Assembly (NCBI GenBank): GCA_028753945.1
Contig: JAPNXP010000006.1
Location: forward strand, 2,046,001 to 2,110,000
Direction: 5' to 3'
DNA length: 64,000 nt
Origin: Hexactinellida sp. DTS-2022
Lineage: Eukaryota; Porifera; Hexactinellida
The notes under the pieces are model-generated. The model was not told where the DNA came from. It worked only from the letters and a program-made list of their open reading frames with translations, and did not search any database. Positions within the stretch are counted from its first letter, which is position 1. Every line of letters begins with the position of its first letter. Shown here one piece after another: positions 37,428 to 53,570 of the stretch. Both the position numbers and the translations under genes were made by a program.

Positions 37428-37606
37428 AATGACGTCGATATGTTAATATTTTGTTTAAGTGAACTGTTTCATGTTACAATATACAAAGCACTTGTTGTTT
37501 ATATGTTTTGTTTAATCTTTATGTGATGAATGCATTATATACAACTTATGCTCTTTGATATATAAATTATATTAATTGTATAGTAGCGTTTAAATACAAT
37601 CTTAAT

Positions 37607-38650
37607 TCAACTAAAGTTATGAATAACAAACTGATCCCTGTAGTGTTTTGCAGCAAAATGCCCAGTTTCCTCAAATGCGAATGGTTCATCCATCATACAT
37701 ATATGATGATCAATAATGGAATCTTCCAACATGGGTTGCTTCCAAGCAATAGCCATATTATTAAGAACAGCACATGCGAGAATAATAGTGCAGACTTTAT
37801 CTGGAGCCATGCGGATCTCTCCGTGAAAGCAATGAAATCTTCTCTTCCACCTCCCAAAGGTTTGCTCGATTGATACACGCGTTTTTTTGTGGGAATAATT
37901 ATAATTCTCTTGGACATTTGAAGCAGGTTGCCGGTATGGAGTTAATAAATAGGATTTCAGTATATACCCGCTATCACCTAAGATATGCTCTCCAACCAAG
38001 AAGTTATTCTCCACATATGTTTCAACCTGAGAGAGCTTCCAAATACGTGAGTCATGTACTGAACCAGGGAATCTTGACAATACATCGTAAAATCTACCAT
38101 CAGGTAGACAGAGAGCTTGAACATTTATGGAGTGGTAGAAATGTCTGTTTACATAATCAGCCTCGTTTTCAGAAGGCTTTTGAATACGAACATGTGTTCC
38201 ATCTACAAGTCCAAGAACGCCGAGTAGGTTCGCGAGCTCATAAAACTGGGACTTAATCGTAGCCTTGTCACCAGAACCGGGCATGCTAATAAACTTTGAA
38301 TATACCGATTGTAGTCCGAGTGCAACGGCTCTAATGTACCTGCAAGCTGAGGGTTGGCTCACGTGAACTCCATCACCACAAATTATCTGAAAAGTCCCAG
38401 ATGCAAAAAATTGTAGAGCAACACAAACTTGTACATGTAGATGTGCAGCATGAGATCTATCAGTTGAATTAAGATGATCAACTATGATCTCTTTAATCCT
38501 TAATATTGCTGACCTTGAGAAGCGGTAACGCTGCACCAATTCTAGATCATCATAGAATTCCAAAGGATGACTACGATCTCTGAAGACTCTCTCTCGAGTG
38601 AGAGAATTTTCCGATTCTTCTGCTAAAAACAATGGAATCATTCCTGCCAT
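37607..38650 (-). CDS. Harbinger (PIF/Harbinger, HARBI1-like) transposase, intact
   Basis: A single uninterrupted frame of 347 codons, about the length of HARBI1. The N-terminal helix-rich part (FYDDLELVQRYRFSRSAIL, ALQFFASGTFQ, VSQPSACRYIR) precedes the DDE nuclease. The catalytic positions are D150 in GLVDGTHVRI, D226 in ILGDSGY and E262 in VSIEQTFGRWKRRF; D200 in GSVHDSRIW is also conserved. In the family the enzyme cuts and pastes the element with a Myb/SANT-like partner that brings it to the nucleus and to DNA. It is antisense to the kinase gene within its intron. No stop or shift was found, so it may be recently active or retained by selection. The element's 5' end is probably near 39345. 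Confidence 0.93.
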   Translation of the reverse strand: MAGMIPLFLAEESENSLTRERVFRDRSHPLEFYDDLELVQRYRFSRSAILRIKEIIVDHLNSTDRSHAAHLHVQVCVALQFFASGTFQIICGDGVHVSQPSACRYIRAVALGLQSVYSKFISMPGSGDKATIKSQFYELANLLGVLGLVDGTHVRIQKPSENEADYVNRHFYHSINVQALCLPDGRFYDVLSRFPGSVHDSRIWKLSQVETYVENNFLVGEHILGDSGYILKSYLLTPYRQPASNVQENYNYSHKKTRVSIEQTFGRWKRRFHCFHGEIRMAPDKVCTIILACAVLNNMAIAWKQPMLEDSIIDHHICMMDEPFAFEETGHFAAKHYRDQFVIHNFS

Positions 38651-48512: not shown

Positions 48513-48811
48513 AGAGAGGAGTTCCAAGACATGTTGTGTTTCGTATATGTGTTGTATTACAGTAGTTTATATGTTTGTATTTTGTATTTAGGTTTACTTA
48601 TTATCATTAAAAAATATATTAATTCCAAATAAATGTCTGGGTTTATTCTTCACAGGATATACTTGGTTGGGAAATATTTGACTTGATATGCACTTAAGTG
48701 CTTTTATGTTCACTCCCATAAGATTATTCTATTCCTAAAGTCCATCTATTACCGAATCCATGGTACATCTACTGTTAGGCCTTATATAGAGTAGGCTATG
48801 ATGCAAGCTTT

Positions 48812-49261
48812 AGGGAAGCCAGAAAGACTGGGGGGGTACAAACACTGCTGGACATGTCGAAGACGAAGTCATGCTCATTATATCAGCAGATAGAGGTATT
48901 TCTGACTCTGCAGACCGGGTAACAGAGATGTTTCAAAACACCCCTGCTTTTAGTGGAATTTCAGGTGTTGTTGATCTTTTCCAAGCACCAGCTGGGAACA
49001 ATGAAATCCCAATACGCGTAGCATCAAATAGCTTAACAGCATCAACAGAGGGTCCCGTTGAATTTGAAGGAAGTCCAATTTTAGGATCTCCAGAAGTTGA
49101 AATCCCGACATATAAGCCATCGAAGAAAAGTCGGAAGAGGAGGCGAAATGTTGATAACCAAGATGATTCTGTCGAGTTATTGAGTGCTGCAGTTTTGTAT
49201 CAACAGATGGCTATATTCTCAGCACTGCTTCAGTTGATAGAAGAGCAGAGGGTGTATTATA
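48812..49261 (+). pseudogene. Harbinger Myb/SANT-like partner gene, 3' part, broken by a foldback
   Basis: After a possible acceptor (ctttag) the sequence reads EARKTGGG, a motif found downstream of the Myb/SANT domain in Harbinger partner proteins. Past a shift in the G run it continues VEDEVMLIISADRGISDSAD, a Ser/Pro-rich middle, then KKSRKRRRN (a basic patch) and AAVLYQQMAIFSALLQLIEE, a terminal helix. The frame runs into the 3.8-kb foldback at 49262. If that insertion and one TATTATA copy are removed, the frame continues about 13 codons with a basic, Leu-rich tail to a TGA at 53107-53109. The N-terminal DNA-binding domain is missing, replaced by foldback-family sequence. Confidence 0.68.
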
Positions 49262-50184
49262 TACAGGGTAAAAACCCTAACCATCTAAGGAAGTTCCTAA
49301 CCAAACTTTTTAAGGTTTTAATTGATACTTTAGGTCACTAGGAATAGTTTAAGCCCAGACAACATTTTTGAAATTTGTTGGTTTTCACACAAACGGTGAC
49401 GTCATCACACGACTAATCTTTCACACTATCGGTAATAACTATTGATCTATATGTCGCCATGACATGAAAGTTGTATATTTGAATAGGGCGTAAGAAAACC
49501 TATCGATTGATGTATAAATTATTTTATTCAGACGTCATCTGTATTTTTGTTTATGACGTCATCATAAATTTACTTTCGAGGGATTCAGCTGTTTATCACG
49601 ACAAACGTCACTTTACTCGATTTGAATTATTATGTTGACCTTATGCATGTTATAAATAACTTCCGCAAAGGACGTACACACGTTTTCGCAATTTTCGGAA
49701 CTATAATATAGACTAATACTTAGTAAATATACGACAATAATCCACCGATACATATATTCCAATATGTCTGGTGAAAAGATTGTGCATTTTTTGAGATAAA
49801 AGCACCCAATTATGTACAGTTGTTGCATTTTAGCTACTGATCACCTTTAGCTATTGCGCATAGCCCAATTTATGGAAAATGAAATATTCAGGGGGTCAAA
49901 GATTAGTGCCCAATGGAATTCTCCGGCAGTATGAACCAAGGATAGACCATTCAAATGCATTCATTTCGACTGTATATTGTCAGATTCGTCCTCAGCACTA
50001 AATTTCCAGCATTTGAGGGCAATATTTACTATATTTGGGGAAATTATTCTTCGTTATTCCAGTGCAACAGTAGGAATGTTGTAACATTCCGATCTCAAAA
50101 TTGCTACTAGCCATATCGAGTGATACCTTGTTTTCTCGGCTCTGCGTACTGAGTGCGACTTTTGCTATTAGAAACACTCTAAAT

Positions 50185-50337
50185 CAGGGTTTTTTTAAGG
50201 TTGAGACCTTGGTGCAACTCAGCGCGGCCTTGGTGTAACTCAACACTGCAGAGGCTGCTGCCGACCCGAATCGTGGTGTAACTCCAAAAAATCTTAGTGC
50301 AAATTTTACACCAAGATCGGCCTTAAAAAAAACCCTG
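50185..50337. mobile_element. hAT MITE in the left arm (ancestral insertion)
   Basis: CAGGGTTTTTTTAAGG family, with a perfect duplication ctctaaat (50177-50184 and 50338-50345). Its mirror copy with the mirror duplication is at 51986-52138, so it was present before the arms were duplicated or was copied between them. Confidence 0.9.
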
Positions 50338-50399
50338 CTCTAAATATTAAAAAGTATGCAGGATTTTATACAGAAAAGTTTCCTATGATTACTCATTAG

Positions 50400-50584
50400 C
50401 AGTGTTTTTTTTAAGGCAAATTAGAGGCCCAAAATGGGCTTCTAATTTCTCTCAATGGGCCTCTAATTTTTAACGTGCTAAGTACTCAATATCATGAAAT
50501 GTAGAGTGAGAGCCTCTAATTGTTGGGGTGAGGGCCTCTAATTGTTGGTAGGGCCCTCTAAGCAAATCCTTAAAAAAAACACTG
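50400..50584. mobile_element. hAT MITE present only in the left arm
   Basis: Ends CAGTGTTTTTTTTAAGG and CCTTAAAAAAAACACTG with a perfect 8-bp duplication ctcattag (50392-50399, 50585-50592). The right arm has the uninterrupted site (gctaatgagtaatc) near 51925. The interior repeats 'gcctctaatt'. Confidence 0.93.
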
Positions 50585-50877
50585 CTCATTAGCATCCTAG
50601 AAACAATCACATCGCCAACTGGGGGTCAGGGGGGCGCTGTTAGCCCTCCAGTGGGGTCCAGGGGAAAAGCCCCTGGAAGCCAGTAACAATATTAGAGTAC
50701 TAGTACTAGATCCAGCAGTAGAGTGCTATTGCTATTCGCCAAGGAAAAATAGGGGCGATGCCAGGATGCCCCAACCTCTGTATAAAACCCTGGTATGTAT
50801 TGTTCCATATTCCTGCACAAGGCATAATGACCCAGAAATTTTGATTCGGCATTTTCAACACCCATAATGCTTCAATA

Positions 50878-51042
50878 CAGTAGATGTCGGATATGCACAC
50901 CGGTTATAAGAACATATCGGATATAAGCACATTATGTTGGAAAACGTTTGCCATGTATAATTTATGTCGTTTATAACCACATGCCGCTTATAAGCACCAT
51001 AAGTGCAGTTCCCGACGATGTGCTTATAACCGGCATCCACTG
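50878..51042. mobile_element. Pogo/Tigger-like MITE present only in the left arm
   Basis: Starts CAGTAGATGTCGGATATGCA; the right end, inverted, is CAGTGGATGCCGGTTATAAG. TA on both sides (50876-50877, 51043-51044). The right arm shows the empty site near 51638 (aatattgaagc continuing into tttgg). Confidence 0.9.
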
Positions 51043-51985
51043 TATTTTCAAATAAAAGGGATTGTTTCAATAATATCATTTATGCAAGGTCCTTGTGTCT
51101 AATTAGTATCCATTGCTGAATTCTTTATCCAAAGTATCTATTTGCATGGCCGTAAATCCGTAAATAGTGGGAGGATGAAGTACCACACTTCATATTACTT
51201 ATTAATAAAGATAAAATTCAAAAATAATATCAAAAGTAGACTGAAATTTCCATAGATCTTTCTAAGTATTTCAGATTTACTAGCAAATTCCCTTGCTAAA
51301 TAATCAACGTATAGCTTTCAAATGCTATAATAATAGAAATAAATTTGGCATTTTAATGCTGAAGATTTGTTTAGAAAGTAGTCGGAAGATACTCCATTAA
51401 GGCATCCTCTAAACACAAAATGGGGGTATGATTGTATGGAGCATCACATCCACTCCAAAGGATGGGGATATATCCCCCACCAATCCCCCCTGGACATACG
51501 CCCACGTCTATTTGGCATAATTGGCATTTATTCTAGTTCAAATAATAATAAATTCTAACTACTTTCAGCAATTTATCGTTAATTAGACCAAGAACCTTGC
51601 ATTAATAACATCATTGAAAACAATCCCTTTTTTGGAAATATTGAAGCATTATAGGTGTTGAAAATTCCGAATCAAAATTTCTGGGTCATTATGCCTTGTG
51701 CAGGAATATGGAACAATACATACCAGGGTTTTATACAGAGGTTGGGGCATCCTGGCATCGCCCCTATTTTTCCTTGGCGAATAGCAATAGCACTCTACTG
51801 CTGGATCTAGTACTAGTACTCTAATATTGTTACTGGCTTCCAGGGGCTTTTCCCCTGGACCCCACTGGAGGGCTAACAGCGCCCCCCTGACCCCCAGTTG
51901 GCGATGTGATTGTTTCTAGGATGCTAATGAGTAATCATAGGAAACTTTTCTGTATAAAATCCTGCATACTTTTTAATATTTAGAG

Positions 51986-52138
51986 CAGGGTTTTTTTTAA
52001 GGCCGATCTTGGTGTAAAATTTGCACTAAGATTTTTTGGAGTTACACCACGATTCGGGTCGGCAGCAGCCTCTGCAGTGTTGAGTTACACCAAGGCCGCG
52101 CTGAGTTGCACCAAGGTCTCAACCTTAAAAAAACCCTG
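51986..52138. mobile_element. hAT MITE in the right arm (mirror copy)
   Basis: Mirror of 50185-50337, flanked by atttagag on both sides (51978-51985, 52139-52146). One or two homopolymer lengths differ between the two copies. Confidence 0.9.
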
Positions 52139-53409
52139 ATTTAGAGTGTTTCTAATAGCAAAAGTCGCACTCAGTACGCAGAGCCGAGAAAACAAGGTAT
52201 CACTCGATATGGCTAGTAGCAATTTTGAGATCGGAATGTTACAACATTCCTACTGTTGCACTGGAATAACGAAGAATAATTTCCCCAAATATAGTAAATA
52301 TTGCCCTCAAATGCTGGAAATTTAGTGCTGAGGACGAATCTGACAATATACAGTCGAAATGAATGCATTTGAATGGTCTATCCTTGGTTCATACTGCCGG
52401 AGAATTCCATTGGGCACTAATCTTTGACCCCCTGAATATTTCATTTTCCATAAATTGGGCTATGCGCAATAGCTAAAGGTGATCAGTAGCTAAAATGCAA
52501 CAACTGTACATAATTGGGTGCTTTTATCTCAAAAAATGCACAATCTTTTCACCAGACATATTGGAATATATGTATCGGTGGATTATTGTCGTATATTTAC
52601 TAAGTATTAGTCTATATTATAGTTCCGAAAATTGCGAAAACGTGTGTACGTCCTTTGCGGAAGTTATTTATAACATGCATAAGGTCAACATAATAATTCA
52701 AATCGAGTAAAGTGACGTTTGTCGTGATAAACAGCTGAATCCCTCGAAAGTAAATTTATGATGACGTCATAAACAAAAATACAGATGACGTCTGAATAAA
52801 ATAATTTATACATCAATCGATAGGTTTTCTTACGCCCTATTCAAATATACAACTTTCATGTCATGGCGACATATAGATCAATAGTTATTACCGATAGTGT
52901 GAAAGATTAGTCGTGTGATGACGTCACCGTTTGTGTGAAAACCAACAAATTTCAAAAATGTTGTCTGGGCTTAAACTATTCCTAGTGACCTAAAGTATCA
53001 ATTAAAACCTTAAAAAGTTTGGTTAGGAACTTCCTTAGATGGTCAGGGTTTTTACCCTGTATATTATAGATTGAAACGTCTAAGACTGATGGAAAAATCA
53101 TGTAAATGATTTCCAACAATCATATGAATAAATATATAAACCCTTTCTCTATGGTAATGCATATTAGAACTAGAATTACATTTAAAACAATGTAGGTATG
53201 TTTATTCATACAATCAGTAATATCCTGCTACGAATTATATCATGTGATTAGTAGTGTCTGATTACACACAATACCAGAAACCTTTCAAAAATATTTAACG
53301 TTTATCTGAAAGTTTAATATTCAATCAGGTAGATTAAATGTTCGATAGAAGTAAATTTGAACAACGTTTATGAAGTAATTAGTGAAAATCGAATCAAATA
53401 CAATACTTA

Positions 53410-53570
53410 AGACACCTCTCTAAGTAGCTTAAAGTTCGGTCTTAAGATCGAACTTAAATCTTAGTGAATACCGATCTTAGTGAATACGACTTAAGATCGA
53501 ACTTAAGACTTAAGCACTAAGATCGATCTTAAATACGATTTTAAGTTCTTAGTGAATACGGCCGCAGGAT
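53410..53570. repeat. Probable Harbinger terminus, second copy
   Basis: Ends cttagtgaatacggccgc, like 39236-39345, and contains repeated cttaagatcg, 'aagatcgatctt' and 'cttagtgaatac' phrases. It lies 0.3 kb beyond the projected stop of the Myb-like gene, so it may be the 3' end of the element that carried that gene. Confidence 0.5.

Follow-up and report, generated by a model that had tools for sequence, protein, structure and literature searches.

The window analysed here is a stretch of 64,000 nt from Hexactinellida sp. DTS-2022 (assembly GCA_028753945.1, contig JAPNXP010000006.1, positions 2,046,001 to 2,110,000 of the forward strand). Within it, a fragment of a Harbinger Myb-like gene is interrupted by a palindromic foldback element (Table 1). 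The element is one of at least 18 such foldbacks in the genome and is most likely a non-autonomous foldback derivative of an Academ(X)-like DNA transposon, an assignment made by traits and not by sequence. It is based on coding relatives that share the ends of the foldback or have similar ones and that appear to combine a nuclease domain with the 3-bp target site duplication (TSD) that is reported for AcademX.

The two outer arms, compared as 49255-50401 and 51922-53068, are reverse complements over 1147 nt, with identity given as 100% for the whole length and one mismatch in a comparison of 1140 positions. The inner arms pair over 293 nt, and a third, degenerate inner pair (80 nt at 81%) brings the total to about 1.5 kb per arm. 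Long inverted-repeat arms thus account for most of the 3804 bp, which is the distinguishing character of a Foldback-type element. The initial annotation of this DNA had described a non-coding 3.8-kb foldback with arms of about 1.5 kb, and both the pairing of the arms and the lack of coding capacity agree with that description; the longest open reading frame (ORF) beginning with ATG has only 74 aa, and a coding role for the window foldback was dropped for this reason. The symmetry axis that it had given, a coordinate sum of 102323, was also recovered by computation. Two miniature inverted-repeat transposable elements (MITEs) lie in the arms, of which MITE1, with an 8-bp flanking repeat and CAGGG..CCCTG ends, is presumably of the hAT type. 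At the left edge of the loop, a small nested inverted-repeat insertion (CAGTAGATGTCGG...) was seen by eye on one side only, at about 50878-51044.

Table 1. Features of the foldback element and of the interrupted sequence, numbered from the first nucleotide of the window.
Feature	Positions	Strand	Remarks
Interrupted Harbinger Myb-like gene fragment, left part	48799..49259	+	
TTA target site duplication, left copy	49257..49259	+	
Foldback element	49260..53063	.	3804 bp, ends TATACAGGG...CCCTGTATA
Left outer arm	49260..50401	+	
Arm segment, 82% homologous to right end of coding element L030	49260..49759	+	mirror 52564-53063
Arm segment, about 78% like 'B' inverted-repeat element	49769..50184	+	mirror 52139-52554
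MITE1, 153 bp, CAGGG..CCCTG	50185..50337	+	8-bp flanking repeat CTCTAAAT; both arms; mirror 51986-52138
MITE2, 185 bp, CAGTG..CACTG	50400..50584	+	8-bp flanking repeat CTCATTAG; left arm only
Left inner arm	50585..50877	+	
Loop separating the arms	50878..51638	.	
Right inner arm	51639..51931	-	99% alike to left inner arm
Right outer arm	51922..53063	-	1 mismatch in 1140 against left arm
TTA target site duplication, right copy	53064..53066	+	
Harbinger fragment, continuation right of the insertion	53067..53568	+	

The foldback is inserted cleanly into the Harbinger gene fragment. The interrupted sequence has 20 further near-full-length paralogues listed from the same genome, and the insertion site is uninterrupted in all five that were inspected (L046-L050). 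Three of these read TATTATAGATTG, which is exactly the empty site that had been predicted, and the remaining two have small indels at the site. When the flanks are joined without the foldback, the frame gains about 13 codons, reproducing another prediction of the initial annotation. The same source had placed the insertion in a Harbinger Myb-like gene, and here the family is right and the extent of the gene is not. Pfam has no match for the 162-aa ORF of the window itself, so the identity of the interrupted sequence rests on its paralogues: L046 has a Myb/SANT-like domain (Pfam, E 1.9e-9), and L048 has a DDE_Tnp_4 transposase upstream (Pfam, E 1.1e-27). The window copy starts at about 48799, without the Myb domain and the transposase part that are present in the paralogues, and the foldback therefore landed in a fragment rather than in a whole gene. 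A second Harbinger piece lies elsewhere in the window (37430-38568, minus strand); its identity to the initial 1.1 kb of L048 is 96.6%.

In the window, TATTATA flanks TACAGGG...CCCTGTA on both sides, and this heptamer had been taken as a 7-bp TSD. The flanks of 18 copies (15 foldback, 3 coding) were scanned at offsets of 0-8 and lengths of 2-8, with 300 shuffled pairings each. These copies come from 24 loci, namely 23 with foldback ends and L044; loci with a damaged or missing end (L010, L020 and L024) and those with one end in the fetched stretch (L026, L028 and L031) were omitted. The dominant signal is a 3-bp match at offset 4, outside TATACAGGG...CCCTGTATA, which is found in 15 of the 18 copies (shuffles: mean 2.0, maximum 6), that is, in 13 of the 15 foldback copies and two of the three coding copies. 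There are two weak echoes, one of 5 bp at offset 3 (three copies: the window, L012 and L016) and one of 7 bp at the previously proposed offset (two copies: the window and L016), each with a shuffle maximum of 2, and all of the copies that show them belong to the 15 with a 3-bp match. The window's TSD is best read as 3 bp, TTA, with the 7-mer consisting of TTA plus the terminal TATA beside a TA-rich flank. On these counts the 7-bp duplication was abandoned, and the outer edges, formerly set at 49255 and 53068, were moved to 49260-53063 as the 3-bp TSD requires. The empty site had been predicted correctly despite the wrong duplication, because both readings predict the same one.

With a 401-bp end query, at least 41 genomic matches were obtained from the 40 of 52 candidates that were scored. 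Among the fetched loci are 18 two-armed foldbacks, counting the window element and the three copies whose end is damaged; the same ends also bound two coding elements (L029 and L030), and three further loci have one end in the fetched stretch. L030 is a 5.9-kb coding element with terminal inverted repeats (TIRs) of 323 bp at 99.7% identity, ORFs of 886 and 720 aa, and the TSD TAG; L029 is a decayed coding relative whose TIRs are 94% alike. L044 represents a separate family, with 328-bp TIRs at 97%, ends TATACGGGG, a 924-aa ORF and the TSD TAA. A protein search with the 720-aa ORF of L030 lists 70 matches in the genome. The coding elements L030, L033 and L034 have the same frame change between two long ORFs, with an overlap of about 20 nt, and L044 is open across this point.

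The foldback arms contain sequence related to these coding elements and to a second repeat. The first 500 bp of the arm match the right end of L030 over 498 bp (82%) and its left end over 328 bp, which is about the length of the TIR. Near the point where the match to L030 ends, the next arm segment (arm positions 510-925) begins, and it is 78-79% like 'B', a separate and abundant inverted-repeat element of about 1.29 kb with arms of about 425 bp and ends TAGTCCAGC (copy at L044:6785-8072). For 'B', at least 63 matches are listed, with 40 of 292 first-look candidates scored.

In the proteins of the coding relatives, DUF6589, which is without an assigned function in Pfam, is firmly detected in the 924-aa ORF of L044 (E 4.5e-10) and weakly in L035 (E 0.0065). 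For the C-terminal half of the coding relatives Pfam gives nothing firm, and a profile-profile test was run because the sequence searches against Pfam and the PDB had given no XPG match. In an alignment of the C-terminal half from ten relatives in the same genome, D46-G47, D87.Y89, EEAD 183-186, DTD 206-208 and G261.D263 are fully or almost fully conserved. In hhalign, these motifs fall, in order, on acidic positions of EXO1 and GEN1 from the same genome (E 1.3e-5, probability 80.6, score 47.8); the names EXO1 and GEN1 are based on an XPG_I match and on a reading of their sequences. Against the score of 47.8, the controls reached at most 25.0 (200 column shuffles), 13.6 (reversed profile) and 15.2 (EXO1/GEN1 tails). 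With moderate confidence, we assign the C-terminal domain as XPG/FEN-like nuclease.

Nucleases of Academ transposons are generally regarded as being of the XPG type. AcademX elements are described as having TSDs of 3 or 4 bp, and the difference in TSD between AcademH and AcademX seems to be tied to the helicase and nuclease that they encode (PMC10045372). Both traits occur here, the TSD as the prevailing 3-bp match and the nuclease as a profile-profile match that none of the 200 shuffles equalled. The coding relatives resemble AcademX in their long TIRs, their nuclease-type domain, their 3-bp TSDs and their size (about 5.9 kb); the window element is unlike it in being non-coding with kilobase arms. 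The initial annotation had found that no standard class fitted. A partial answer comes from the coding relatives, which share these ends or have similar ones and point to Academ(X)-like transposons. Among the literature matches listed, there is no paper that brings together Academ and foldback elements and no mention of GCDTT or DUF6589, and a whole-word search combining Academ, XPG and 'DNA transposons' found no paper. If the Academ assignment is true, the terminal sequences TATACAGGG and TATACGGGG and the TSD data would add to what is known of this group.

Several observations weigh against the assignment to Academ(X). The named Academ elements were compared by their described traits only. 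The 3-bp flanks are unmatched in three of the 18 scanned copies (L021, L022 and L029). DUF6589 scores E 0.13 in L030 and is firm in the L044 type only. Support for the XPG family comes from profile-profile comparison only, with a partner profile of two sequences, and direct sequence search found the family neither in Pfam nor in the PDB. No DDE/D catalytic triad was identified. Finally, identity between coding and foldback ends is 82-87%, and these coding copies are best regarded as relatives of the foldback, not as proven partners.

The comparison by traits, the failure to find a DDE/D triad and the unassigned function of DUF6589 would all suit a foldback from a superfamily still to be named, in which an XPG-like nuclease and a 3-bp TSD are no more than traits in common with AcademX. 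We regard this as unlikely, since the pairing of nuclease and 3-bp TSD is the AcademX combination (PMC10045372), and since 5.9 kb is near the mean length of Academ elements in bivalves, given as 5565 bp (PMC10294476). The perfect 7-mer on both sides of the window element instead recalls Galileo of the P superfamily, for which long TIRs, 2-TIR derivatives and 7-bp TSDs are described (PMC3573991). A Galileo-like foldback with TATTATA as a true 7-bp TSD is nevertheless very improbable: the 7-bp match is confined to two of 18 copies, against 15 for the 3 bp that lie two bases further out, and the Pfam scans of L030, L033, L035 and L044 list neither a P transposase nor a THAP domain. The same scans list no mariner transposase, which counts against an element of the Tc1/mariner type that duplicates TA or the 4-bp TATA. 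Such an element would account for the TATA that immediately borders both CAGGG-type ends in 17 of the 18 copies. However, this constant TATA matches equally often in shuffled pairings and is uninformative, so duplications of TA and TATA were dropped; the variable 3 bp outside it are what match. In addition, the three paralogues that match at the junction keep no TA or TATA between the TSD positions, and a Tc1/mariner-type origin has hardly any probability left. The Academ(X)-like assignment is the one we retain in what follows.

The foldback copies also document the history of their arms. Arm divergence was measured in 13 of the 18 foldbacks, those with a clean first 700 bp; L010, L020, L024, L025 and L027 were omitted because their arms are interrupted or damaged. 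The arms belonging to one copy differ by 0.16% on average, versus 1.86% between copies, and minority (derived) bases are present in both arms in 84 cases versus 15 in one arm only. A copy's own arm is clearly the closest in 11 of the 13. MITE1 was counted in 15 of the 18 foldbacks, excluding L009, L010 and L013, in which one arm is truncated before the site. Fourteen copies have it in both arms, one (L022, with a single CTCTAAAT in each arm) lacks it in both, and no copy is mixed. MITE2 is seen in the window's left arm only. In L016, a 311-bp segment is present in both arms at 100% identity. At least 275 bp of this segment are found once, on one side of the loop, in ten of the 17 other foldbacks; L021 has it once plus an inverted part of 194 bp, L017, L022 and L023 have it in part, and L009, L010 and L013 have none. 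On the opposite side, many foldbacks also show an old stretch of 80 bp (80-89%).

Arms thus resemble their partner in the same copy more closely than they resemble arms of other copies, and they can grow into the loop, by 311 bp in L016. The low divergence within copies, the MITE1 pattern and the L016 segment together indicate arm-to-arm copying after divergence, as well as inward growth of the arms. A few cases run counter to this pattern. In L012 the own arm is practically tied with others, and in L009 it is not the closest; among the coding elements, L030 fits and L029 does not, its TIRs being 5.6% apart. Mis-assembly is a common risk with long perfect inverted repeats, and the identities here were read from the assembly. 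The arm identity might then be an artefact of assembly or polishing, or the palindrome might have formed anew many times, with no conversion between arms in either case. We consider this doubtful. The presence of MITE2 in one arm only argues that the arms were not mechanically copied in the assembly, and the arm architecture and MITE1 position that are common to the copies point to one foldback ancestor. L009 and L010 share a truncation of one arm at about 881-884, which also speaks against this reading and suggests that a deleted foldback transposed again.

Arm-to-arm conversion has a parallel in Galileo, where the TIRs of one copy are reported to be 98-100% identical and repair from the opposite TIR has been proposed as the way in which TIRs grow (PMC3573991). 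By analogy, such a process would explain the homogeneity of the arms in this foldback family. In the scheme that we propose, the palindrome may have begun when the right end overwrote the left, through arm-to-arm repair that ran past terminal repeats of about 325 bp; the direction is suggested because the arm matches the right end of L030 over 498 bp and the left end over 328 bp only. Repeated conversion between the arms would then have carried a later MITE1 insertion into both of them and extended them inward. The foldback itself may be moved in trans by the protein of L030-like coding elements. A further step, in which the Academ(X)-like nuclease itself homogenises the arms by cutting cruciforms or hairpins that the arms form during or after transposition, with repair from the other arm rebuilding and lengthening the palindrome in each cycle, is conceivable and in our judgement quite improbable. 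If the nuclease did drive homogenisation, foldbacks would be a programmed by-product of a transposon class and not an accident of repair. With a foldback family and a transposon-encoded, structure-specific-nuclease-like domain occurring together, a link between the enzyme and the formation of palindromes becomes a testable proposition.

The 2-TIR form of Galileo (P superfamily, Drosophila) is like the present family in that its non-autonomous copies consist almost wholly of long TIRs (PMC3573991). It is unlike it in having a 7-bp TSD and a P-type transposase, in place of the 3-bp TSD and the relatives with an XPG-like nuclease found here. Tetris of Drosophila virilis and the Tm1 Mutator/foldback elements of root-knot nematodes have the same foldback architecture and are different elements, likened here by their description only. 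The Academ(X)-like transposons would be a likely home for kilobase-armed foldbacks outside the P and Mutator groups. The copies in this genome form a natural series, in which arm growth, an insertion copied from arm to arm and a recent one-armed insertion can be seen side by side. A check for relatives of the L030 proteins in the 10.9-kb foldback copy at L013/L014 found none; nested in this copy is a retroelement for which Pfam gives a reverse transcriptase domain (E 2.4e-16).

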